DNA of 11,640 nt from Chloroflexota bacterium. Lineage in GTDB: Bacteria > Chloroflexota > Anaerolineae > B4-G1. The notes beneath the pieces were generated by a model. That model saw only the letters and a program-made list of their open reading frames with translations. It did not search any database and was not told the DNA's origin. Shown in pieces: positions 842 through 11,640 of this stretch. Location of the stretch: NCBI GenBank assembly GCA_024232355.1, contig JAAEPW010001139.1, positions 1 to 11,640 on the forward strand, written 5' to 3'. How positions within the stretch are numbered: the stretch's first letter is position 1; each line of letters opens with the position of its first letter. The translations under genes and the position numbers were made by a program.

Positions 842-3800
842 TTATCGCGTACTGAGTATACCCAAGAAAGCAAACGGAGAAAAGACATTGCCTATCCCTG
901 TAGAAGGTAGAGTGACGACACTACTGTATCCTCCCGTGCCATCCTCTTGCAGTGGATAGATCATCACCAAATCATTCTGTCCCAACCACCCACCAATCTG
1001 TGGTGCCGTAAGCTCTGCATCTCCATACACCGTGAGTGGCTCTCCATCAGGCAAACGCAAAACACGAACCAAAAGCATCGAACCACCAGGGGCCGTTGCC
1101 CATTCTCGCCAGGCCAACCAAGTATTACCTGGAGAAAATGAGAAATCACCGGCCACGGTGGCCCCTTCGGCACAGAGGATATTTTTCTCTGTGCCGTCAA
1201 CCAGAGATCGGAGAGTAAGAAAGACCCCCTCGTCTGGCCACTCTACAATCTTGGATTGGACAAGCCACGTCCCATCAGGACTAACCTGACCATCATGAAC
1301 CCCATCCAGATCACCAATTTGTGTCGTCTGACCGGTACCCAAATCGAGAGCCAGCATACCCGGATTATAGTCAAAATAGGCCCAAGCAGTCCCATATTTT
1401 GGTTGCGATAGATAAACGGCTCTACCATCCTCTCGCCAACTTGCTAGATCAATATTGCGATAATCAGGCCCTGTTTGGACGTGACTCCACACCTCGCGCG
1501 CGTTGCGTCCCCTGTCGTCCGTAACCATAAGCCGAAAGTTGATCTCTGCCGTTCCACTAATCAGATCAGACCAGTCTGGCACTCCATTGTCACACAGCCA
1601 GGCCAACCGACGAGCATCAGGACTTGCCAACGGCGGCTGACAACCCGCAAGCGCATCAGAAACAAAAAGTGACACGCCACCATTCCGATTAGCATACGCC
1701 TTGTTATAATAAACTCGGTTACCACTAACGTGGAATGGCGTGTATTGCTCCGCTCCTTTCGCCAGCACCACAACATCGGCTCCATCCTCACCCACAAAAT
1801 GGAAAAGAGGTACGCCATCCGTATACTCGATCAACACCATGCCAGAACTTGCCGACACATCCACAGATTGAGGAGACCAACGAACAGCGCCAAGAGAATC
1901 AGCAAGAAGTAATACAGAATCAGCACCATCAGATGGGAACCAGTAGAGGTGCTCATCATAAATCCACTCTACTCCAACCAGGAACCCACGCCCATCAGGA
2001 GACCATTCCAACGTTGCCCACTCTAATTCTGGCATAGAAAAGACTCGCCGGAGTACCGCATCTTCTGATACGGATACTTCCCACACCTCATTCCCAACAG
2101 TGAGAATCATCCGTTCTCCATCTGGAGACCAGGCGAATTTGGCGTCGGGGTTTGTCGTTTCTGATTGCAACACAATTCCCCAATCAGGGAGCCCTATACC
2201 CTGCCCTTCACCGAGAGGCAATTCGGCCACATACATGGTCATCGATTGCTGCATCAGTCCCGGATCACTGGCCAAGGCTGCCAGATAAGACCCATCAGGA
2301 GACCAAGCAAACTCTAGCATTGGAGCTTGTCTTCCGTCAAAAGTCTCCAAAATACCAAAGCCGCTCAATGGTTCCGACAAATTGGGGGCAACCAACCCCA
2401 CCCAGGTAACATCCTGGTTTGCCAGGTAATAGGCAATCCAATCGCCTCGAGGTGACCAAGCAGGAGACGGCAGAATCTTGGGAGATTCTGCCCCTTCCGG
2501 CGCTACAACCAAAGTGTGTTCCTCACCTGTCTCCAAATTGTAAACATAAAGATTCCCCTCTCGCGCGTACGCAATTCGACCACCATCGGGAGACCAGGCA
2601 CCAAGAGGTGAAACAGGAAATGATTCTACCCGCCCAGTCTCTGGATCGAGGGATACGGGTTCATTGTCGGGAAAAGTATAGACAAGACGACCATTAGGAA
2701 TCCAGCGAAACGTCGAAAGCTCGCTCTCCAATTCTAAAGAGAATTCACGTTGGATGTCTGCAACCAAATCATACATCCCCAAACTGATTCCTTGAGAATC
2801 ATCTCCAAGTGAATGCTTGGCCCACCAGGCAAGTCGCTGTCCGTCAGGAGACCACTGAAATTCCCGGACATTTCTTACACCCAGTGGGCGAGCAATGTGA
2901 TCCTGCCACAACCAGAGGTCTCCCAGAATGGTGTACGCAAAAGTATCGGATGGACCAATGGGTGCATAGGGTCGGAAAGCCTTTCCATCCCAACGAAAGG
3001 TTTGCTCCCAGATTTCCTCTCCCAGGATAGCTAAACCATCCTCATTCGAAGAATAAAAGATTACGTACCCGCGGAGCAGAATTTCGTTCAGCGCGTCCTC
3101 GTCCAAATCTACCCATTCCCACTCTGCCCGATAGTTTTCCCGATACAACTGCGGCACAGCCTGATCGTCGGCCATCGTGTTATTTGAAGCAGTATCCGCA
3201 TGCCAGATACGATCAAATTTGTTGCCATCCCAACGATACATAGTGTCTGCGGAGGTTGTCCAACCCCGCTGCGTTCGAGAGTAGTGGTTGAGCAATTCCT
3301 GCTGACCATCATTGTCCAAGTCGATCAAATCCGGAGAAAGGTAGAAAGGCGGCGGCACATCGAACCCCGATCCAAGCCACTCTGAAACACCGAGCATCTC
3401 CCAGTTGCCCACAGTTTCCGTCTCTCCGACCACCACCCATCGTATATCATCAAGGTCACCGATGTTGCCGACGAGCGCTAACCGTTCGTTGGCAGCGGGA
3501 GCAGTAAAACTACCCGTGGCGAGATGGGCAACCCAGTGCTCGACGCTGCTTTGTCCCAGCACCGCACTCACGATCTCCTGTTCGTCGGGGAAGGTAATTG
3601 GAGCAGCAGGTTGGCGGACAAAAACGGGGAGGATTGAAGGAAGAACTGATGTGGGAGTAGGAGCGGGCAACGTGGATGTAGGTACAGTCGCCGTTTCCAA
3701 TGCAAGAGACGCAATCGCCTCCACAGAAGCCGACGGAGATGGCTCAATAGGGGTAACTTCCGGCTCGTCTGGTGCGCCGCAGGCGCATACCACCGATGCA

Positions 3801-3874
3801 AGAGCCAGCAGCATCAACCAGACGTAAAGTCGGTGACCAGGAGCTGATTTGATACTGCGCCTCACTTTATGCAT
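842..3874 (-). CDS. Large lipoprotein with FG-GAP-like and PD40 (TolB-like) propeller repeats
   Basis: A 1010-residue exported lipoprotein of unknown specific function. The signal peptide has a basic n-region, a hydrophobic core (about residues 17-29) and a lipobox ending V-C-A-C, giving lipid attachment at Cys32. A Pro/Ser/Thr/Glu-rich linker follows to about residue 90. Two acidic FG-GAP-like motifs, LIDLDNDGQQELL (183-195) and WVDLDEDALNEILL (254-267), suggest calcium-binding loops. From residue 341 to 917 there are about twelve WSPDG-type repeats (341, 391, 427, 473, 524, 582, 624, 666, 750, 813, 864, 913), the hallmark of PD40/TolB-like beta-propellers and enough for two propellers. ATG at 3874 is preferred because it gives a normal signal peptide; a TTG four codons upstream also reads in frame, and neither has a good ribosome site. 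Such proteins bind partners or glycans at the cell surface. It is not TolB itself: no TolB N-terminal domain or Tol genes are present. It ends 15 bases before the tRNA-Lys promoter. Confidence 0.85.
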   Translation of the reverse strand: MHKVRRSIKSAPGHRLYVWLMLLALASVVCACGAPDEPEVTPIEPSPSASVEAIASLALETATVPTSTLPAPTPTSVLPSILPVFVRQPAAPITFPDEQEIVSAVLGQSSVEHWVAHLATGSFTAPAANERLALVGNIGDLDDIRWVVVGETETVGNWEMLGVSEWLGSGFDVPPPFYLSPDLIDLDNDGQQELLNHYSRTQRGWTTSADTMYRWDGNKFDRIWHADTASNNTMADDQAVPQLYRENYRAEWEWVDLDEDALNEILLRGYVIFYSSNEDGLAILGEEIWEQTFRWDGKAFRPYAPIGPSDTFAYTILGDLWLWQDHIARPLGVRNVREFQWSPDGQRLAWWAKHSLGDDSQGISLGMYDLVADIQREFSLELESELSTFRWIPNGRLVYTFPDNEPVSLDPETGRVESFPVSPLGAWSPDGGRIAYAREGNLYVYNLETGEEHTLVVAPEGAESPKILPSPAWSPRGDWIAYYLANQDVTWVGLVAPNLSEPLSGFGILETFDGRQAPMLEFAWSPDGSYLAALASDPGLMQQSMTMYVAELPLGEGQGIGLPDWGIVLQSETTNPDAKFAWSPDGERMILTVGNEVWEVSVSEDAVLRRVFSMPELEWATLEWSPDGRGFLVGVEWIYDEHLYWFPSDGADSVLLLADSLGAVRWSPQSVDVSASSGMVLIEYTDGVPLFHFVGEDGADVVVLAKGAEQYTPFHVSGNRVYYNKAYANRNGGVSLFVSDALAGCQPPLASPDARRLAWLCDNGVPDWSDLISGTAEINFRLMVTDDRGRNAREVWSHVQTGPDYRNIDLASWREDGRAVYLSQPKYGTAWAYFDYNPGMLALDLGTGQTTQIGDLDGVHDGQVSPDGTWLVQSKIVEWPDEGVFLTLRSLVDGTEKNILCAEGATVAGDFSFSPGNTWLAWREWATAPGGSMLLVRVLRLPDGEPLTVYGDAELTAPQIGGWLGQNDLVMIYPLQEDGTGGYSSVVTLPSTGIGNVFSPFAFLGILSTR

Positions 3875-3887
3875 ATTCAAGAACAAT

Positions 3888-3965: not shown

Positions 3966-5240
3966 CTATTGCTTCTGATAAGGTTGACCATCGGCAGCAG
4001 GAGATACTGTCTTGCCAATAACACCAGCCACGGCGATCATAGTCAAAATAAAGGGCAACATGCCGATAAACTGGTACGGCACACCGACCTCGAGAATCTG
4101 AAACTTGAAATTCAGTGCATCAGCAAAGCCAAAGAGAAGTGCCCCTAATGCGCCACCAATGGGGTTCCAGTTGCCAAAGATCATGGCCGCCAGCGCGATA
4201 AAGCCGCGGCCGTTGGTCATCAAGTCGTCAAAGTGACCCACCGTCTCCAATGAGAACCAGGCTCCACCCAGACCGGCGATACAGCCAGCCAGGATGACGT
4301 TCACATAACGCACCTTGAAAACATTGATGCCCAGTGTGTCGGCGGCACGGGGGTGCTCGCCAACAGCACGGGTGCGCAGTCCCCACGGTGTGCGAAAGAG
4401 CACAAACCACACCACCGGCACCAAGATGATAGCCGCATAGACCATTGGTTGATACTGAAATAAAATCGCTCCTAGAATAGGAATATCCCAAAGCGGCGTT
4501 TTCTGAAAGACATAGGGAAACAAGCCCGGCGCGCCGAAAGGATTTTTGAGCAAAAAGGCAGTTCGGATGTAACCACTCACTCCCACCGCCAGAATGTTGA
4601 TGACAGTGCCACTGATGATTTGATCTACCATGAAGCGGATGGAAAGGAAAGCGTGCAATGCAGCCATCAAACCACCAATGAACATAGCGACCATCAGACC
4701 AACCCACATATTCTGCGTATATAAAGAAGCCATATACCCCACCGCAGCTGCAGTGAGCATCATGCCTTCGATAGCAATGTTGACGACGGCGCAGCGTTCG
4801 CACATCACACCAGCCAGCATACCCAGCACGATAGGTGTCGCCAGGCGCATACTATCTTTAATCATGCCTACCAGATCAATACTCTTGTTAGCCGCCGCGG
4901 CAAGCAAAGCTGCCAGGACAATCAGTCCAAAGCAAAGTCCCAAGAGCGTATTCACTCCCCGCTCCTCAATTGGCCGCAGCAACGAATAAAAACCAGCCAA
5001 TCCCATCAGAATGCCGATGACGAACAGGCTAGGCTGAGTAGGCATCGGTATGCGCACCGGCGGCGGTTCACCAATAATCCCCAACCCCAGTTTCGATATA
5101 GTACCAGACTCAACCCGCATAATGGTTGCTGCCAAGATGATCAGGGCGACGATCAAGTAGAAAACGCCAAAGCCACGCGCGCGAGTCCAAAAGCGCTTGG
5201 TTCTCACTGTGGGCGTAGCAGTTGTCACACTCGTACTCAT
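3966..5240 (-). CDS. BMP-type (nucleoside) ABC transporter permease, NupQ-like
   Basis: This 424-residue inner-membrane permease belongs to the BPD_transp_2 family and is one of two membrane subunits of a Nup/PnrA-type importer. After a cytoplasmic tail (about 1-24) come hydrophobic segments near 25-41, 70-86, 98-116, 134-146, 153-172, 178-200, 208-224, 266-283, 311-330 and 347-410. The MCERCAVVNIAIEGMML region (about 146-162) and the cytoplasmic loop VGEHPRAADTLGINV (293-307), which contacts the ATPase, are family hallmarks. It is longer than typical NupQ proteins because of an extra N-terminal region of roughly 100 residues with two or three added membrane spans. The start is set by GGGGAGGA ending 7 bases before the ATG, inside the end of the upstream permease gene, with a 3-base intergenic gap. 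It is therefore translationally linked to the fused permease. Substrate (nucleosides, by family) is inferred. Confidence 0.9.
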   Translation of the reverse strand: MSTSVTTATPTVRTKRFWTRARGFGVFYLIVALIILAATIMRVESGTISKLGLGIIGEPPPVRIPMPTQPSLFVIGILMGLAGFYSLLRPIEERGVNTLLGLCFGLIVLAALLAAAANKSIDLVGMIKDSMRLATPIVLGMLAGVMCERCAVVNIAIEGMMLTAAAVGYMASLYTQNMWVGLMVAMFIGGLMAALHAFLSIRFMVDQIISGTVINILAVGVSGYIRTAFLLKNPFGAPGLFPYVFQKTPLWDIPILGAILFQYQPMVYAAIILVPVVWFVLFRTPWGLRTRAVGEHPRAADTLGINVFKVRYVNVILAGCIAGLGGAWFSLETVGHFDDLMTNGRGFIALAAMIFGNWNPIGGALGALLFGFADALNFKFQILEVGVPYQFIGMLPFILTMIAVAGVIGKTVSPAADGQPYQKQ

Positions 5241-5243
5241 AGT

Positions 5244-7358
5244 CTATCCTCCCCATCCCCTGGTAAAGACCACTGCCGCCTCGCGTCGCGCCCGCAGGCG
5301 ATACAGCCAGCGGATGATCTGGTCGGCGGCGATGAACATGATGACCAAAGCCTGAATAATACTTACCAGGTCGATAGAAATACCTTGTGCTCGTATCTGC
5401 ATCAACCCGGCGCCATTGCGCAGCGCGCCCCACAAAAAGGCAGCTGGAAAGATGCCAAAGGGATGGCTCTTGGCCAATAGAGCTACAGCGATGCTGTCAA
5501 AGCCAAAGCCACTGGAAAAGGCTGCCTTGAGCGAGTACTCGCTGGGCCGCCCCAACACAATGCCAATGCCAGCCAGCCCAGCCAACGCACCCGAAAGCCC
5601 CATCGCCAGTACAAAGTTTCGGTTCACGCTCATACCCGCATACCGAGCGGCGCTGGGGTTGGCGCCCACCGTTCGAATTTCAAAACCCCAGGTCGTCTTG
5701 AAAAGGAACCACCAAACAAACACGATCGCCGCCAGAGCCAGCAAGAACCCAATGTGAAGTTCGTACTGGGAAGAAACAAGAGGGTACCGTGCGCTCTCAG
5801 CCACGAAAGGAGTACGCTCCAACGTAGCCGCAGGATCCTTGAGCGGGTTCTTTACCAAATAGTCCACCGTCTTGACGGCGATATAGTTCATCATAATAGT
5901 GTTGATGACCTCGTGAGCACCAGTCGTTGCTTTCAGCAAACCCGGAATAGCTCCCCAAATCGCTCCCGCCAGTATGCCGGCGATGATGGCCAGCGGTAGG
6001 TGAATATAGATCGGCAAGCCTGTGACAGCGAACCCCACAAAGGTGGCGCCCAGAGCCCCTATATAAAGTTGCCCTTCTGCACCAATGTTGAACAGACCAC
6101 ACTGAAAACCTAACGCCACTGCCAGTCCAGCCAGGATGTAGGGGGTACAATAGGTCAGAGTGGTGACCAACGCCTTTGGCGATCCGACCGCTCCCTCAAA
6201 GAGCCCGCCATAAGCTGCCAATACCAGATCATTTGCCTGGGGAATCACCTGTCCCCAAGTCTCACCCAGCGCCCTAAGTTCCGAAGCACGCGTGGCCCAA
6301 ATGATGATAGCCCCAATCAGTACAGCAGTGAATACAGCCAGTACCAACACGGCCAGTTCACTCCACCGCCAAGCCCTAACCCGATCCCACAGCGTCTCGG
6401 CGATATCCTCACCGGTTGGGCCAACACCAGTGGTGATAGTGCCACTACGGAGACCAGCGGCTATCTCATCGATCCGGCCTTTAACCTCCTCGGGGATGTC
6501 GCTCTCAGCCAAATGATAGGGAGCCAGACTAATACCCTCGTTGCCAGCGTCAAAGATAGCAGTTTCGCCGACGAACTGGCCTTCCGCCGCCCGCCTGATG
6601 GCCACATACACCGCGTTATCCACGCGCTTGATAGCACTTGAAAGCAAACGGTCAGCGCCGGGAGCTTGGCCATTCTCAAACGTGGTGACCCACTCGTCCT
6701 GATCCACGCCGACAACCAAAACACCCTGCTCGGCAGCTCCCAAAATGCCCCCGCTGCCAGTTTGCCCTCCAGCACCAAAGATCACATCGGCTCCCTGCTC
6801 AATGAAAGAGTGAGCTACTACTTGGCCCTTCTTGGGGTCGGTGAAAGATTCAATGTGCTCACTCAGTATCTGCACTTTGGAATTAACGTGTCGGGCTCCA
6901 TTGGTAAACCCTTTGCGGAATTTGATAACAGGCGGAATCTGGTCACCGGCGACCACGCCTAGCACATTGCTCTGCGTCATATAACCCGCCAGTGCGCCCG
7001 CCAGAAAGCCCGCTTGATCCTCCGCAAAGAGTAGCCCCATCACATTGGGCAACACCGGATAAGGGGCAAAGTCTATGGTGATGAAATCGACGTCAGGATG
7101 ATCCTTGGCGATCCGTTCTGTCATCTCGCTCGGCACTTGGCCGACAGTGATGATGACCTGACACCCTTGTTCAATCAGTGTCAGGACATTATCTGATCCA
7201 TCATCAGGGCGAGCAGTCTCGATATAGGTCGTCTCCAGGTCAAACTCTTCGGCGGCGCGTATCATACCTTCATAGGCATATTGATTAAAGGTCCCATCAT
7301 CAATCTTTCCCACATCGGTGACCAGTCCAACTCGGAGTTTATCATGTGCTCTCTGCAT
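5244..7358 (-). CDS. Fusion: BMP substrate-binding domain plus ABC permease (NupP-like)
   Basis: A 704-residue protein with two usually separate importer parts. Residues 7-312 are a full BMP/PnrA substrate-binding domain: LVTDVGKIDDGTFNQYAY (12-29), LFAEDQAGFLAGALAG (110-125), FGAGGQTGSGGILGAA (194-209), GVDQDEW (217-223), SAIKRVDNAVY (241-251). Residues 335-690 are a BPD_transp_2 permease: first membrane span 335-354, ALVTTLTYCTPYILAGLAVA (396-415), GLFNIGAEGQLYIGA (421-435), and ATPase-contact loop VGANPSAARYAGMSV (564-578). No signal peptide precedes the BMP domain. By the usual topology of these permeases the N-terminus is cytoplasmic, which would place the BMP domain inside the cell. ATG at 7358 is chosen because GGGAGG (7368-7373) sits 9 bases upstream; the in-frame GTG at 7379 lies upstream of that site and has none of its own. 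The gene begins 4 bases after the ATPase stop. The reading frame across the join has no start codon suggesting two genes. Confidence 0.88.
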   Translation of the reverse strand: MQRAHDKLRVGLVTDVGKIDDGTFNQYAYEGMIRAAEEFDLETTYIETARPDDGSDNVLTLIEQGCQVIITVGQVPSEMTERIAKDHPDVDFITIDFAPYPVLPNVMGLLFAEDQAGFLAGALAGYMTQSNVLGVVAGDQIPPVIKFRKGFTNGARHVNSKVQILSEHIESFTDPKKGQVVAHSFIEQGADVIFGAGGQTGSGGILGAAEQGVLVVGVDQDEWVTTFENGQAPGADRLLSSAIKRVDNAVYVAIRRAAEGQFVGETAIFDAGNEGISLAPYHLAESDIPEEVKGRIDEIAAGLRSGTITTGVGPTGEDIAETLWDRVRAWRWSELAVLVLAVFTAVLIGAIIIWATRASELRALGETWGQVIPQANDLVLAAYGGLFEGAVGSPKALVTTLTYCTPYILAGLAVALGFQCGLFNIGAEGQLYIGALGATFVGFAVTGLPIYIHLPLAIIAGILAGAIWGAIPGLLKATTGAHEVINTIMMNYIAVKTVDYLVKNPLKDPAATLERTPFVAESARYPLVSSQYELHIGFLLALAAIVFVWWFLFKTTWGFEIRTVGANPSAARYAGMSVNRNFVLAMGLSGALAGLAGIGIVLGRPSEYSLKAAFSSGFGFDSIAVALLAKSHPFGIFPAAFLWGALRNGAGLMQIRAQGISIDLVSIIQALVIMFIAADQIIRWLYRLRARREAAVVFTRGWGG

Positions 7359-7362
7359 TGGT

Positions 7363-8889
7363 TTATTCCTCCCACCCACACATCCGCAAGCCGATATCTT
7401 CCTTGGATAGTTGACCGGCAGGCACTATGTCCACAATCTCTCCTTCATATATCACTGCAATGCGATCAGATAGCGACATAATCTCGTCCAACTCGGCTGA
7501 CACCAACAACACAGCCACTCCAGCATCACGAGCCTGGACCAGCCGATTGTGGATAAATTCGATGGATCCTACGTCCAAACCCCGCGTAGGTTGAGCGGCT
7601 ATGAGCAATTGAATGGGACGTGATAGCTCTCGTCCAACCACCACCTTTTGTTGATTGCCGCCCGAGAGGCTACTGCCCGGCGTGTAGACACTGGGTGTTC
7701 GGATATCAAATTCGTGGACCACACGCAACGCGTGATCTTCGATAGCCCGATGATCCATGACAACACCGCGGGCAAAGGGAGGTTTATAGTAGGTGTTCAG
7801 AACCAAGTTGTCAGCGATAGAATAACCATACACCATACCATGCTCGTGCCGGTCTTCTGGGATGTGGGCTGAGCCTTCCAAAGTCACACCCAAATCCGTA
7901 ATCTTGCGCGGCGATGCATTGGTGACATCTACCTCCCCAATCACAACCTGACCATCCAGACAACGGCGCAGCCCCGTCAGCACCTCAACCAACTCTGTCT
8001 GACCATTGCCTTGCACCCCGGCGACCCCCAGAATCTCGCCTGCCTGCACCTCAAATGAAACATTGTTCACGATCAGCGTCTCCCGATCATCAAGAATGCT
8101 CAAGTTCTCCACCTGCAACACCGGTGAACCCAGTTGGGCAGGTCCCTTATCCACAGTAAGAATCACTTCCCGCCCAACCATCATCTCTGCCAGAGATTCT
8201 TTGCTAGATTCTGCCGGAGCAGCAATGCCGACCACGTGCCCGTTGCGCAACACAGTAATCCGGTCGGCCACGGCAAGAACCTCTCCCAATTTGTGGGTGA
8301 TAAAAATGATACTCTTGCCCTGCTCAACCAGTGACCGCATAATCACAAAGAGCTCTTCAGCCTCCTGTGGCGTCAGCACTGCTGTCGGCTCATCGAGGAT
8401 AAGCACATCGGCCTCACGATAAAGAGCTTTGACGATCTCCACTCGCTGCTGCGTGCCGACCGACAGGTCCTTGATATAAGCACCCGGATCAACCTCCAAA
8501 CCGTATTTGCGCGAGAGGTCGCGGATTCGTTGGGCTGCCGTATCCAAGTCGAGCACAAAACCGTTCTTTACAATTTCTGTGCCGAGGATAATGTTCTCAG
8601 CAACAGTCATTACAGGAATGAGCATAAAGTGCTGGTGAACCATACCGATGCCCAGTTTGATAGCGTCGGTTGGTTCACCGATACTCACTTTGCGACCGTT
8701 CAACAAAACCTGCCCCTCGTCCTGACTGTAGAGACCATACAGGATATTCATGAGAGTAGATTTGCCAGCCCCATTCTCTCCCAGCAAGGCGTGGATTTCG
8801 CCCTTTTTGAGTTGGAAATTGACGTGGTCGTTAGCCAGGACTCCGGGAAAACGTTTGGTGATACTTTGCATTTCCAGAGCCAAAGTCAT
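7363..8889 (-). CDS. Double-NBD ABC importer ATPase, NupO/MglA-like
   Basis: A 508-residue cytoplasmic ATPase with two nucleotide-binding domains in one chain, as in NupO (purine nucleoside) and MglA/RbsA (sugar) importers. NBD1 has Walker [10 protein letters not shown] (37-45), Q-loop Gln86, signature LSVGTQQRV (142-150), Walker B VLILDEPT (162-169) and switch His199. NBD2 is degenerate as usual in this family: GVQGNGQTE (291-299) replaces the P-loop lysine, while the signature LSGGNQQKV (408-416) is intact and [12 protein letters not shown] (428-439) replaces Walker B. The start is ATG at 8889, 6 bases after AAGGAGGTG (8896-8904); the GTG at 8898 lies within that ribosome site and is rejected. 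First gene of a three-gene operon with two permeases, driven by the promoter at 8952-8979. It would power uptake by the membrane subunits encoded at 5244-7358 and 3966-5240. Confidence 0.95.
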
Positions 8890-8895
8890 GCGGCG

Positions 8896-8904
8896 CACCT
8901 CCTT
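8896..8904 (-). promoter_or_regulatory. Strong ribosome binding site of the ATPase gene
   Basis: On the minus strand AAGGAGGTG lies 6 bases before the ATG at 8889. It decides the start, since the alternative in-frame GTG at 8898 is part of this site. Confidence 0.8.
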
Positions 8905-9223: not shown

Positions 9224-11640
9224 ATGCGAAAGCTACTATTAACTATGTTAAGTTTGCTGGCAATATTGTCGTTACTGGTGGCCTGTGGGCCAAAGCCAAC
9301 CGAACCTCCCGCCACAGATGAACCCGCCCCAGCCGCCCCCACCGATGAGCCAGCTCCCCCCCCAGTCGAAGAAGAGTTTCAGGTAGGTTTGGTCACCGAC
9401 GTTGGCAAGGTCAACGATGGTACCTTTAACGAGTATGCCTACACAGGCATGATGCAGGCCGCCGACGAATTTGGCCTAGAGAATGCCTACATCGAAACCC
9501 AGCAACCGACCGACTATGACAAGAACGTCGAGCAATTCATTGACGAAGGCTTCGATATGGTCGTGACCGTCGGCTTTATGATGGGCGATACCACCAAGGT
9601 TCAGGCCGAGGCCAACCCTAACGTCAACTTTGCCATCGTGGACTTTGCTTACGATCCCAACATCCCCAACGTGATGGGGTTGGTCTTTCGCGAGGATCAG
9701 GCCGGCTTTATGGCAGGCGTGTTGGCCGGTTTGATGTCCGAGAGCAAGACAGTCGGCATTGTAGCCGGTATGGAGATTCCGCCGGTCAAAAAGTACCGCA
9801 ACGGCTATGAGAACGGCGTGGCCTACGTCTGCCCCGACTGCACCGTAATTGGCGTCTACATTGACAGCTTTACGGATCCAGCTCGCGGCAAGGCAGCAGC
9901 CGAAAGCCAGATCGCTGAGGGCGCCGACATCATCTTTGGCGCGGGTGGCCCCACCGGTTCGGGTGGCATCTTGGGTGCAGCCCAGCAAGGCGTATGGGTT
10001 ATCGGCGTGGACCAAGACGAGTACTTTACTACCTTCAAAGGCGGCGAGGAAGCTGGCGCCGATATGATCCTCTCTAGCGCTATGAAGCGCGTGGATGTGG
10101 CTGTTTACACCGCGGTCCAAGATGCTTACGAGGGCAACTTTGAAGGACACACTGCCGTGTTTGACGCCTCTGTCAACGGCGTCGGACTAGCCCCCTTCCA
10201 CGACGCGGATGTTCCCGCAGATGTACAGACCCAACTAGACGACATATTTGCTATGCTGGCCGACGGCTCGCTGGATACTGGTGTTGATCCAGTTAACGGC
10301 GATATGCTCGGCGCGCCAAGTGTTGGAGAGCCTACTCCTGAAGAAGTAATAGCATCCATCGAGGCTCCGGACTGTGACTATGGTGGCAAGATCAAGGCAA
10401 TCAAGGCGCTTGATCCGCACACCGTCCAGTTCGAAATGTGCCGACCAGACCCCGCCTTCCTGTCCAAAGCGGCCTTTATCCCCTTTGCCATTTGGCCCAA
10501 GGAATACCTGGAAGAGACCGGCGGCACCGGCACACTGCTCGAAGCCCCCATCGGCACCGGCCCCTACTATCTGGAATCCTGGAACCGCGGCGACAGCCTC
10601 GTTTTCAAGCGCTTTGACGACTACTGGGGTGAACCCGCCATCGCCGAGACAATGGTTCTCCGCTGGGCATCCGAAGGCGCCGCTCGCTTGCTCGAACTTC
10701 AGGCTGGCACCGTAGACCAGATCACCAACGTGCCTCCTGACGATTACGAGACCGTGCAGAACGACGCCGATCTGCAATTCCTACCCCGCTCCAACCCGAA
10801 CATCTTGTACCTGGCCATGTGCAACTTGAACGATCCCTTTGGCGACATCCTGGTCCGCCAGGCCATCGCTATGGGTGTTGACCGCCAGCGCATTGTGGAC
10901 AACTTTTATCCCGAAGGCTCGGTCGTACCCACACACTTTACTCCTTGCAGCATTCCCAATGGCTGCGTTGGAGATTCCTGGTACGACTTTGATCCCGAAG
11001 CCGCTCGCGCTCTGCTGGCCGAGGCCGGATACCCCGATGGCTTTGAGACCACCATCCACTACCGCGACGTCTTCCGCGGCTACCTGCCAGAACCTGGTTT
11101 GGTCGCCGTCGAGTTCCAGGCCCAATTGCAGGACAACCTGGGCATCGAAGCCGAAGTCATCGTGATGGAATCCGGTCAGTTCATCGACGAATCCACCACC
11201 TGCCAGTTGCCTGGTTTCTATCTCCTTGGTTGGGGTGCTGACTATCCGCACGTGACCAACTTCCTAGACTTTCACTTTGGTCGCAGCACCCAGCAGTTTG
11301 GTGACCCGCATCCCGAGATCTTTGAGGCCCTGGAAGCAGGCGCCCAGATCGGTGATCCGGCAGCCGCCGAGTCCCACTATGTGGAAGCGAACAACGCCAT
11401 CCGCGAGTTGGTGCCGATGGTGCCGATCGCCAACGGTGCTGAAGCACAGGCCGCCCGGGCCGGCATCGACACCCACACTCGCCCCTTTGGTGCCAGTGTG
11501 TACGGTCCTGCCGTCGACACAGGCAGTGACACCTTTGTCTTTATGCAGAACGCCGAGCCCATCAGCCTCTACTGTGGTGACGAGTCCGACGGTGAGTCAC
11601 TGTACGCATGTGAAATGGTCAATGAGCCATTGTTGCTCTA
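9224..11640 (+). CDS. Lipoprotein chimera: BMP domain plus family 5 peptide-binding domain (3' end outside the window)
   Basis: The frame stays open to the last base (805 codons, no stop). The start is ATG at 9224, with AAGGA ending 8 bases upstream; an in-frame ATG at 9188 lacks a ribosome site. The signal peptide ends in the lipobox LVAC, lipid at Cys21, then a Pro/Glu/Ala linker (22-51). Residues 52-357 are a BMP/PnrA domain: LVTDVGKVNDGTFNEYAY (56-73), FREDQAGFMAGVLAG (155-169), FGAGGPTGSGGILGAA (238-253), GVDQDEY (261-267). About half its positions match the BMP domain of the fused permease. Residues from about 370 belong to SBP_bac_5 (OppA/DppA): IGTGPYYLESWNRGD (433-447), VRQAIAMGVDRQRIV (544-558), AARALLAEAGYPDGF (593-607), GADYPHVTNFLDFHF (671-685). 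Its N-lobe is missing from the usual place, and an N-lobe-like start (FVFMQNAEPISL, 771-782) appears at the end. Ten cysteines besides Cys21, including CPDC (203-206), suggest disulfides. Likely the exported receptor of the divergent transporter. Confidence 0.9.
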   Translation, partial: MRKLLLTMLSLLAILSLLVACGPKPTEPPATDEPAPAAPTDEPAPPPVEEEFQVGLVTDVGKVNDGTFNEYAYTGMMQAADEFGLENAYIETQQPTDYDKNVEQFIDEGFDMVVTVGFMMGDTTKVQAEANPNVNFAIVDFAYDPNIPNVMGLVFREDQAGFMAGVLAGLMSESKTVGIVAGMEIPPVKKYRNGYENGVAYVCPDCTVIGVYIDSFTDPARGKAAAESQIAEGADIIFGAGGPTGSGGILGAAQQGVWVIGVDQDEYFTTFKGGEEAGADMILSSAMKRVDVAVYTAVQDAYEGNFEGHTAVFDASVNGVGLAPFHDADVPADVQTQLDDIFAMLADGSLDTGVDPVNGDMLGAPSVGEPTPEEVIASIEAPDCDYGGKIKAIKALDPHTVQFEMCRPDPAFLSKAAFIPFAIWPKEYLEETGGTGTLLEAPIGTGPYYLESWNRGDSLVFKRFDDYWGEPAIAETMVLRWASEGAARLLELQAGTVDQITNVPPDDYETVQNDADLQFLPRSNPNILYLAMCNLNDPFGDILVRQAIAMGVDRQRIVDNFYPEGSVVPTHFTPCSIPNGCVGDSWYDFDPEAARALLAEAGYPDGFETTIHYRDVFRGYLPEPGLVAVEFQAQLQDNLGIEAEVIVMESGQFIDESTTCQLPGFYLLGWGADYPHVTNFLDFHFGRSTQQFGDPHPEIFEALEAGAQIGDPAAAESHYVEANNAIRELVPMVPIANGAEAQAARAGIDTHTRPFGASVYGPAVDTGSDTFVFMQNAEPISLYCGDESDGESLYACEMVNEPLLL

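Follow-up and report, generated by a model that had tools for sequence, protein, structure and literature searches.

ATP-binding cassette (ABC) importers usually have a receptor of their own, or draw on tandem receptor domains that serve one importer, as in GlnPQ. Here we describe a lipoprotein gene in an 11,640-nucleotide stretch of DNA from a Chloroflexota bacterium (assembly GCA_024232355.1, contig JAAEPW010001139.1; the window) whose product carries two substrate-binding heads of unrelated families, an N-terminal BMP (PnrA-like) head and a C-terminal SBP_bac_5 (DppA-like) peptide head, the second of which is circularly permuted. Comparisons with the closest described systems refer to excerpts of the papers cited. 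DppA and its SBP_bac_5 relatives (structures 1dpe and 3m8u; the DppABCDF system, PMC12136057) belong to the same family as the C-terminal head and share with it the fold, the contact Arg and Asp residues and the dppB/dppC neighbours; unlike DppA, the head in the window is circularly permuted and attached to another substrate-binding domain. A natural permutation of a tethered substrate-binding protein, with strands moved between the ends of the chain, is known from TpMglB-2 (Tp0684), a glucose-binding lipoprotein for which the name 'Type Ic' was proposed and for which the authors suggested tethering as the reason for the permutation (PMC4990184). TpMglB-2 has, however, a type I sugar-binding fold and belongs to another family, whereas the permuted part described here is SBP_bac_5, matches DppA-like structures and is not of the Type I (Cluster B) sugar-binding fold. 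GlnPQ (PMC8025302) likewise has two substrate-binding domains per polypeptide, but there both are attached to a single transporter's transmembrane domain, and in the window a lipoprotein carries heads that come from two unrelated families. With the BMP/PnrA-like nucleoside-binding proteins (Lbp, structure 7x0r; BmpD, PMC7093131) the product shares the Pfam Bmp domain, and it has a lipobox and a BPD_transp_2 importer as neighbour; unlike in Lbp and BmpD, its BMP domain is fused to a peptide-binding head, and its ligand is predicted. Among the papers listed in searches of the open-access literature, in which broad queries matched more papers than were listed and most were judged from the listing, we found neither a permuted SBP_bac_5 protein nor a receptor joining two substrate-binding families. 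Within that literature and as far as the excerpts go, a permuted substrate-binding protein (TpMglB-2) and tandem domains on one importer (GlnPQ) were already known, and the permuted SBP_bac_5 and the two-family receptor would be new.

The gene occupies positions 9224–11638 of the plus strand and is a single frame of 805 codons which, by open reading frame (ORF) analysis of the window, has no stop and is still open at the end of the contig. Its product begins with a lipoprotein signal (MRKLLLTMLSLLAILSLLVAC; 9224–9286) that ends in LVAC, a motif we take from general knowledge to be a lipobox, with the lipidated Cys at codon 21 (9284–9286). The BMP head follows (residues 51–357; 9374–10294), matching Pfam Bmp (PF02608) over residues 53–323 and profile positions 2–269 of 301, with an expectation value (E) of 1e-53 and 182.7 bits against a gathering threshold of 24.1. 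A linker of residues ~358–383 (10295–10372), delimited in an alignment of fused proteins (A2) and matching a region of low predicted local distance difference test score (pLDDT) in a relative (residues 347–366 of P0001), leads to a match to SBP_bac_5 (PF00496) over residues 388–688 (E 6.7e-59, 200.3 bits against a gathering threshold of 32.4). This match begins at profile position 63 of 368 and so does not describe an ordinary complete domain in place. Specifically, a first piece (residues ~384–768; 10373–11527) corresponds to DppA from ~120 to its C-terminus, and past that C-terminal end, at residue ~769, SBP_bac_5 begins again (11528–11638) with its canonical N-terminal segment of ~110 residues, of which 37 are present before the contig stops. 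A preliminary description of this DNA had proposed one frame that combines a lipobox with BMP and SBP_bac_5 parts, which the frame analysis and Pfam confirm at 9224–11638; it was right about the family of the SBP_bac_5 part but had missed that the order of the chain is permuted. Its warning that automated calls may overlook the fusion is borne out by P0006 (445 amino acids), which starts at codon 361 and omits the BMP half. The longest contig listed for P0006 measures 11,640 bases, so the window appears to be a contig in full.

Judged by the order of its sequence segments, the SBP_bac_5 head represents the DppA/SBP_bac_5 fold in a naturally occurring circular permutation. The stretch equivalent to DppA ~124 to the canonical C-terminus comes first and the canonical N-terminal ~110 residues come second, as if the chain had been opened in the DppA loop at ~118–124 and the old C-terminus joined to the old N-terminus. 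The canonical order, with the N-terminal segment first, is not seen in a complete relative, where the two stretches are swapped. By sequence the permutation is complete in relatives, and in the window the last piece is cut off by the contig end. A truncated SBP_bac_5 domain followed by a second partial one was considered and rejected, as complete relatives end in the same way and contain each segment once. In support of a compact permuted module, the relative P0019 is predicted as a confident single fold. The structure aligner VIA-align covered residues 56–445 of the model and did not superpose the N-terminal piece that has moved, a result that we set among the points against our interpretation but that is no evidence against the placement of that piece.

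DppA grips the ends of its dipeptide through R383 and D436 (PMC12136057), which correspond to residues 355 and 408 of the mature protein (an offset of 28 residues, from 8z1y versus 1dpe) and align with R295 and D350 of the relative P0016 and with Arg618 (11075–11077) and Asp673 (11240–11242) of the window's product. Arg618 is thus the equivalent of the Arg that binds the dipeptide carboxylate, and Asp673 of the Asp that binds its amine. Both residues are invariant in 16 aligned modules (alignment A1) and in 14/14 fused proteins (A2), and simple motif patterns recovered the Arg motif in 191/197 modules and the Asp motif in 189/197. Permuted modules also contain many conserved Cys residues (A1 and a further alignment, A4) with spacing like that of disulphide pairs, for example in CDYGG...MCKPDPAF, TPCSIPNGC, YCxDExDGESLxxC and SCxxNxDxTVWTC; it is possible that disulphide bonds stabilise the permuted joint.

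The fusion is not peculiar to the window. When the chain order of the best 120 matches was classified, a BMP domain followed by a permuted SBP_bac_5 was found in 13 (P0001–P0005, P0009, P0011–P0013, P0028 and P0038–P0040), two of which are near-copies (P0002 and P0003) and three of which lack a signal peptide as listed (P0002, P0003 and P0013); a BMP domain followed by SBP_bac_5 in normal order was found in another three (P0024–P0026). Homologues with the same domain order, a lack of which would have refuted the preliminary description, thus exist in several data sources, and its claim that two unrelated substrate-binding families are united in one lipoprotein holds. In addition, a locus of another genome (L148, genome G643) is syntenic with the window, with the second permease, the BMP–permease fusion and the ATPase described below followed by a divergent fused gene; there the BMP domain, 81% (80.9%) identical to the window's, is joined to an SBP_bac_5 domain in normal order and followed by dppB and dppC. 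The normal order in L148 and the permuted order in the window indicate that the same slot takes either type of peptide head.

The profile start at position 63 had first raised the thought that a BMP gene and a permuted SBP_bac_5 gene were joined in error during metagenome assembly. Two results point that way: for each half, closer relatives are joined to other partners, and the exact pair in one frame was not found in 753 genomes searched with P0001 at cut-offs from 1e-3 to 1e-200, the strict end of which may have concealed weaker examples, a null result that also counts against our interpretation (in this search the order-level set around G024 comprised 2 genomes and that around G643 comprised 48). 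A 933-residue frame of G301, considered as a fused case, was rejected because it has no partner head. An assembly artefact is nevertheless very improbable and was set aside: 13 proteins from several data sources show the same order and the same domain border, the gene at the same place in G643 also has a BMP domain fused to SBP_bac_5, the linker is in frame, and G+C content is similar on its two sides (0.565 and 0.592).

The two halves differ in their closest relatives. For the BMP head of the window, identity is 85.5% with the head of P0001 and 41% with that of P0002; for the peptide head the figures are 52% (P0001) and 91% (P0002). Stand-alone modules in two genomes (G658 and G650) are 85% and 83% identical to the peptide head of P0001. 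As read from sequence comparison, N-terminal heads (BMP, SBP_bac_3 (SBP3) and LivK-type) have been exchanged repeatedly, with 4 label changes for BMP, 9 for SBP3 and 3 for LivK on a tree of 180 modules. For this tree 18 of 198 rows were dropped as possibly lacking the N-terminus, including P0006, the piece of the window's own gene; the rule was a simple pattern that also removed complete-looking proteins with other signal peptides (L046 and L075, for example), and its use lowered the changes for BMP from 6 to 4 and those for all labels from 23 to 20. Such turnover, together with many stand-alone versions in related genomes, would fit a near-neutral head exchange, adjacent importer genes having fused and the heads working independently without benefit from being joined. 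We give this a slim chance: in the SBP3 loci considered below that have a HisM permease match downstream, no free SBP3 ORF was found (11/11), so that the fused form may be the sole receptor, and the aligned fused proteins retain the contact residues of their peptide heads.

Around the fused gene, the window encodes on the minus strand a divergent BMP-type importer consisting of an ATPase (7363–8898, 511 residues, 86% identical in L148), a BPD_transp_2 permease that carries a fused BMP domain at its front (5244–7379, 711 residues, 89% identical in L148, no signal peptide ahead of the BMP domain) and a second BPD_transp_2 permease (3966–5240, 424 residues, 88% identical in L148). Against the NCBIfam models for B6 importers, the importer's ATPase and permease stayed below cut-off, as did the BMP parts of P0001 and L148. 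The closest solved relative of the BMP head is Lbp (7x0r, entered as a guanosine complex; E 1.8e-59), with which it shares GVDxD and SAMKRVD-like stretches, and we infer that it binds a nucleoside-like ligand. In both the window and L148, the fused gene holds the only exported BMP domain found, because the BMP domain fused to the permease has no signal peptide. Of 120 listed matches, 85 passed a filter for complete-looking permease fusions, and a hydrophobic stretch precedes the BMP motif in 0/85 of these, compared with 13/13 exported BMP receptors; this suggests, as do Arg residues before the first hydrophobic segment, that the permease-fused BMP domain is cytosolic, where it perhaps senses ligand that has been taken up. 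Such a location would be unusual for a substrate-binding domain. The fusion of a BMP domain to a BPD_transp_2 permease without a signal peptide is a common architecture among relatives of the 5244–7379 product.

The explanation we favour, with moderate confidence, is a two-headed lipoprotein receptor shared by two importers whose genes lie on either side of its own. One lipid anchor would hold both heads, with the BMP head close to the membrane and the peptide head distal, beyond a linker of about 25 residues; a model of the fused P0001 (mean pLDDT 76.1, predicted template modelling score 0.56) is too weak to place the heads. Each head would close on its own ligand and dock on its own permease pair, the BMP head loading the divergent BMP importer and the peptide head a DppBC-type importer expected just past the contig end, the place occupied by dppB and dppC in the syntenic genome G643. 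The permutation would shift the attachment of the tether away from the canonical N-terminus and onto the ~118–124 loop, and may in this way keep the DppBC docking face free while another domain is attached. We propose this shared service because a fused SBP3 or BMP head is the only receptor found for the second importer, both at SBP3 loci with a HisM permease match downstream and in the window and L148.

The loci in question come from a set of 125 distinct neighbourhoods of permuted modules, with denominators given by the loci that have enough flank. In these counts, stand-alone denotes a module with no partner domain detected, rows not being checked singly, and HisM and GlnQ are our names, based on Pfam, for a BPD_transp_1 permease and an ATPase that follow dppC. 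The stand-alone module is usually a lipoprotein directly upstream of dppB and dppC (dppB next in 85/90, dppC in 62/62), with HisM downstream in 0/47 loci and a Liv importer or a BMP importer upstream in 0/41 each. Beside SBP3 fusions, dppB was found in 14/18 loci and dppC in 12/16, and in addition HisM in 10/14, a GlnQ-type ATPase in 6/14 and an upstream Liv importer in 6/14; DppD/F was found in 1/14, versus 26/47 for stand-alone modules. At SBP3 loci with HisM downstream the fused SBP3 is the only SBP3 ORF found (11/11; one HisM match, that at L131, is weak at 109 bits). The association of SBP3 fusion with HisM gives a p value of 5.6e-9 in Fisher's test (10/14 versus 0/51, LivK fusions being within the 51). 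The pattern of both importers with no other receptor for the second was seen in L148 and 11 SBP3 loci. As a separate observation, five loci (L143, L145, L146, L144 and L131) combine a Liv importer (LivK-H-M-G-F), a receptor of SBP3 plus permuted SBP_bac_5, and DppB and DppC; HisM and GlnQ are present in four of the five, and those four show no DppD/DppF nearby.

Several results weigh against shared service. Corrected for kinship, the association of SBP3 with HisM comes down to 4 independent comparisons, 2–4 of them in the expected direction and 0 against, and significance is out of reach because there are only 4 phylogenetically independent pairs. HisM is missing beside 4/14 SBP3 fusions (L059, L129, L134 and L135): L134 and L135 have no importer match at all, L129 has LivHMGF without DppB/C, and L059 has DppB/C only. 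A further SBP3 fusion, L136, has no importer match in its shorter flank; L134, L135 and L136 are possibly orphan receptors. Three SBP3 fusions (L143, L145 and L146) lack both peptide-contact motifs, though HisM is present. The LivK fusions have DppBC but no LivH or LivM match in the flanks examined, and the HisM that lies beside three of them (L137, L142 and L147) has a separate SBP3 gene of its own. Finally, the frame in the window is cut by the contig end, and one importer is visible there.

Some of these results would suit a protein both of whose heads feed a single importer, DppBC, the BMP head adding a second ligand in the manner of GlnPQ, whose tandem substrate-binding domains on one importer provide a precedent (PMC8025302). 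The permuted module usually adjoins dppB (85/90 stand-alone and 14/18 SBP3-fused cases), and the LivK fusions have DppBC without Liv permeases in the flanks examined. Yet the permeases of the window's BMP importer are of the BPD_transp_2 family and DppB and DppC of the BPD_transp_1 family, and a matching second importer lies in the cluster of the window, of L148 and, as HisM, of 10/14 SBP3 fusions. One transporter with two ligands, which the preliminary description had suggested, is therefore unlikely, the N-terminal head often matching a separate second importer, and we keep it as a rival.

The other suggestion made there, that one of the domains has become structural, fares poorly, given the invariant Arg and Asp in 14/14 fused proteins and the close alignment of the BMP domain with a guanosine-binding protein. 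In a broader form of this idea, the N-terminal head would have lost its role in transport and would serve to position the peptide head, as a spacer, a dimeriser or a regulator gated by ligand. The diversity of partners (BMP, SBP3, LivK, Peripla_BP_4, LysM and a Ser/Thr kinase) would suit an exchangeable stalk or sensor, and no matching importer is seen for the LivK fusions; against this, conservation of the BMP head is high (85.5% between the window and P0001, 80.9% between the window and L148), and most of its length aligns with the guanosine-binding protein. We regard this role as decidedly unlikely.

Returning to shared service by a two-headed lipoprotein, the distribution of the permuted module bears on how such receptors arose. 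A scan of one genome per species gave 445 relatives, and at the loci of the best 80 of these a profile search showed the permuted order in 80/80. By their record titles, 65 of the best 80 are from Chloroflexota, 10 from Pseudomonadota (Alphaproteobacteria among them), 4 from Actinomycetota and 1 from Acidobacteriota, although many are metagenome bins whose taxon labels may be wrong; isolate-like records among them are Bellilinea caldifistulae, Martelella, Devosia and Agrobacterium vitis. No partner domain was detected at 73 of the 80 loci, with SBP3 at 5 and LivK at 2. Since most modules in this unselected set stand alone (73/80), the permutation probably predates the fusions. A larger collection of 222 module proteins, which includes duplicates and long frames chosen on purpose so that its fusion counts are not frequencies, comprises 161 without a detected partner, 32 with SBP3, 14 with BMP (the window included), 7 with LivK, 3 with LysM plus SBP3, 2 with two LivK domains, and 1 each with Peripla_BP_4, LysM and a Ser/Thr kinase.

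A more general proposal, which we put forward tentatively, is that the permuted DppA branch is a plug-in peptide receptor in Chloroflexota, with fused heads delivering two classes of nutrient to their own importers and the permutation enabling a membrane-proximal head without blocking DppBC. If a receptor of unrelated families does serve two importers, it represents a new layout of nutrient capture. The presence of a permuted DppA fold both in named isolates and in genomes of uncultured organisms offers a direct way to ask why binding proteins permute, and the subfamily is easy to overlook because profile searches label its members plain SBP_bac_5 or DppA.

Other architectures were seen among the relatives. 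In one homologue (P0108, 983 residues) the permuted SBP_bac_5 is the C-terminal domain of a Ser/Thr kinase-like protein, possibly a peptide-sensing receptor kinase. Three-headed proteins of ~1,340 residues with the order LivK–LivK–permuted SBP_bac_5 are encoded at two loci (L137, 9268–13275, and L147, 3270–7286) that also have a tandem SBP3–SBP3 gene. The BMP matches include further multi-head receptors (P0020, P0021, P0023, P0015, P0032 and P0010), of the types SBP1+BMP+BMP and SBP3+BMP+BMP and one that, by eye, has a PF02469 domain followed by three BMP domains.

Elsewhere in the window, the minus strand encodes a large lipoprotein-like protein of ~1,014 residues with beta-propeller/PD40-like matches (842–3886), and a gene with a similar-looking start lies, by eye, at the same place in L148. 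Upstream of it in window coordinates are genes for tRNA-Asn and tRNA-Lys (99–173 and 712–788).
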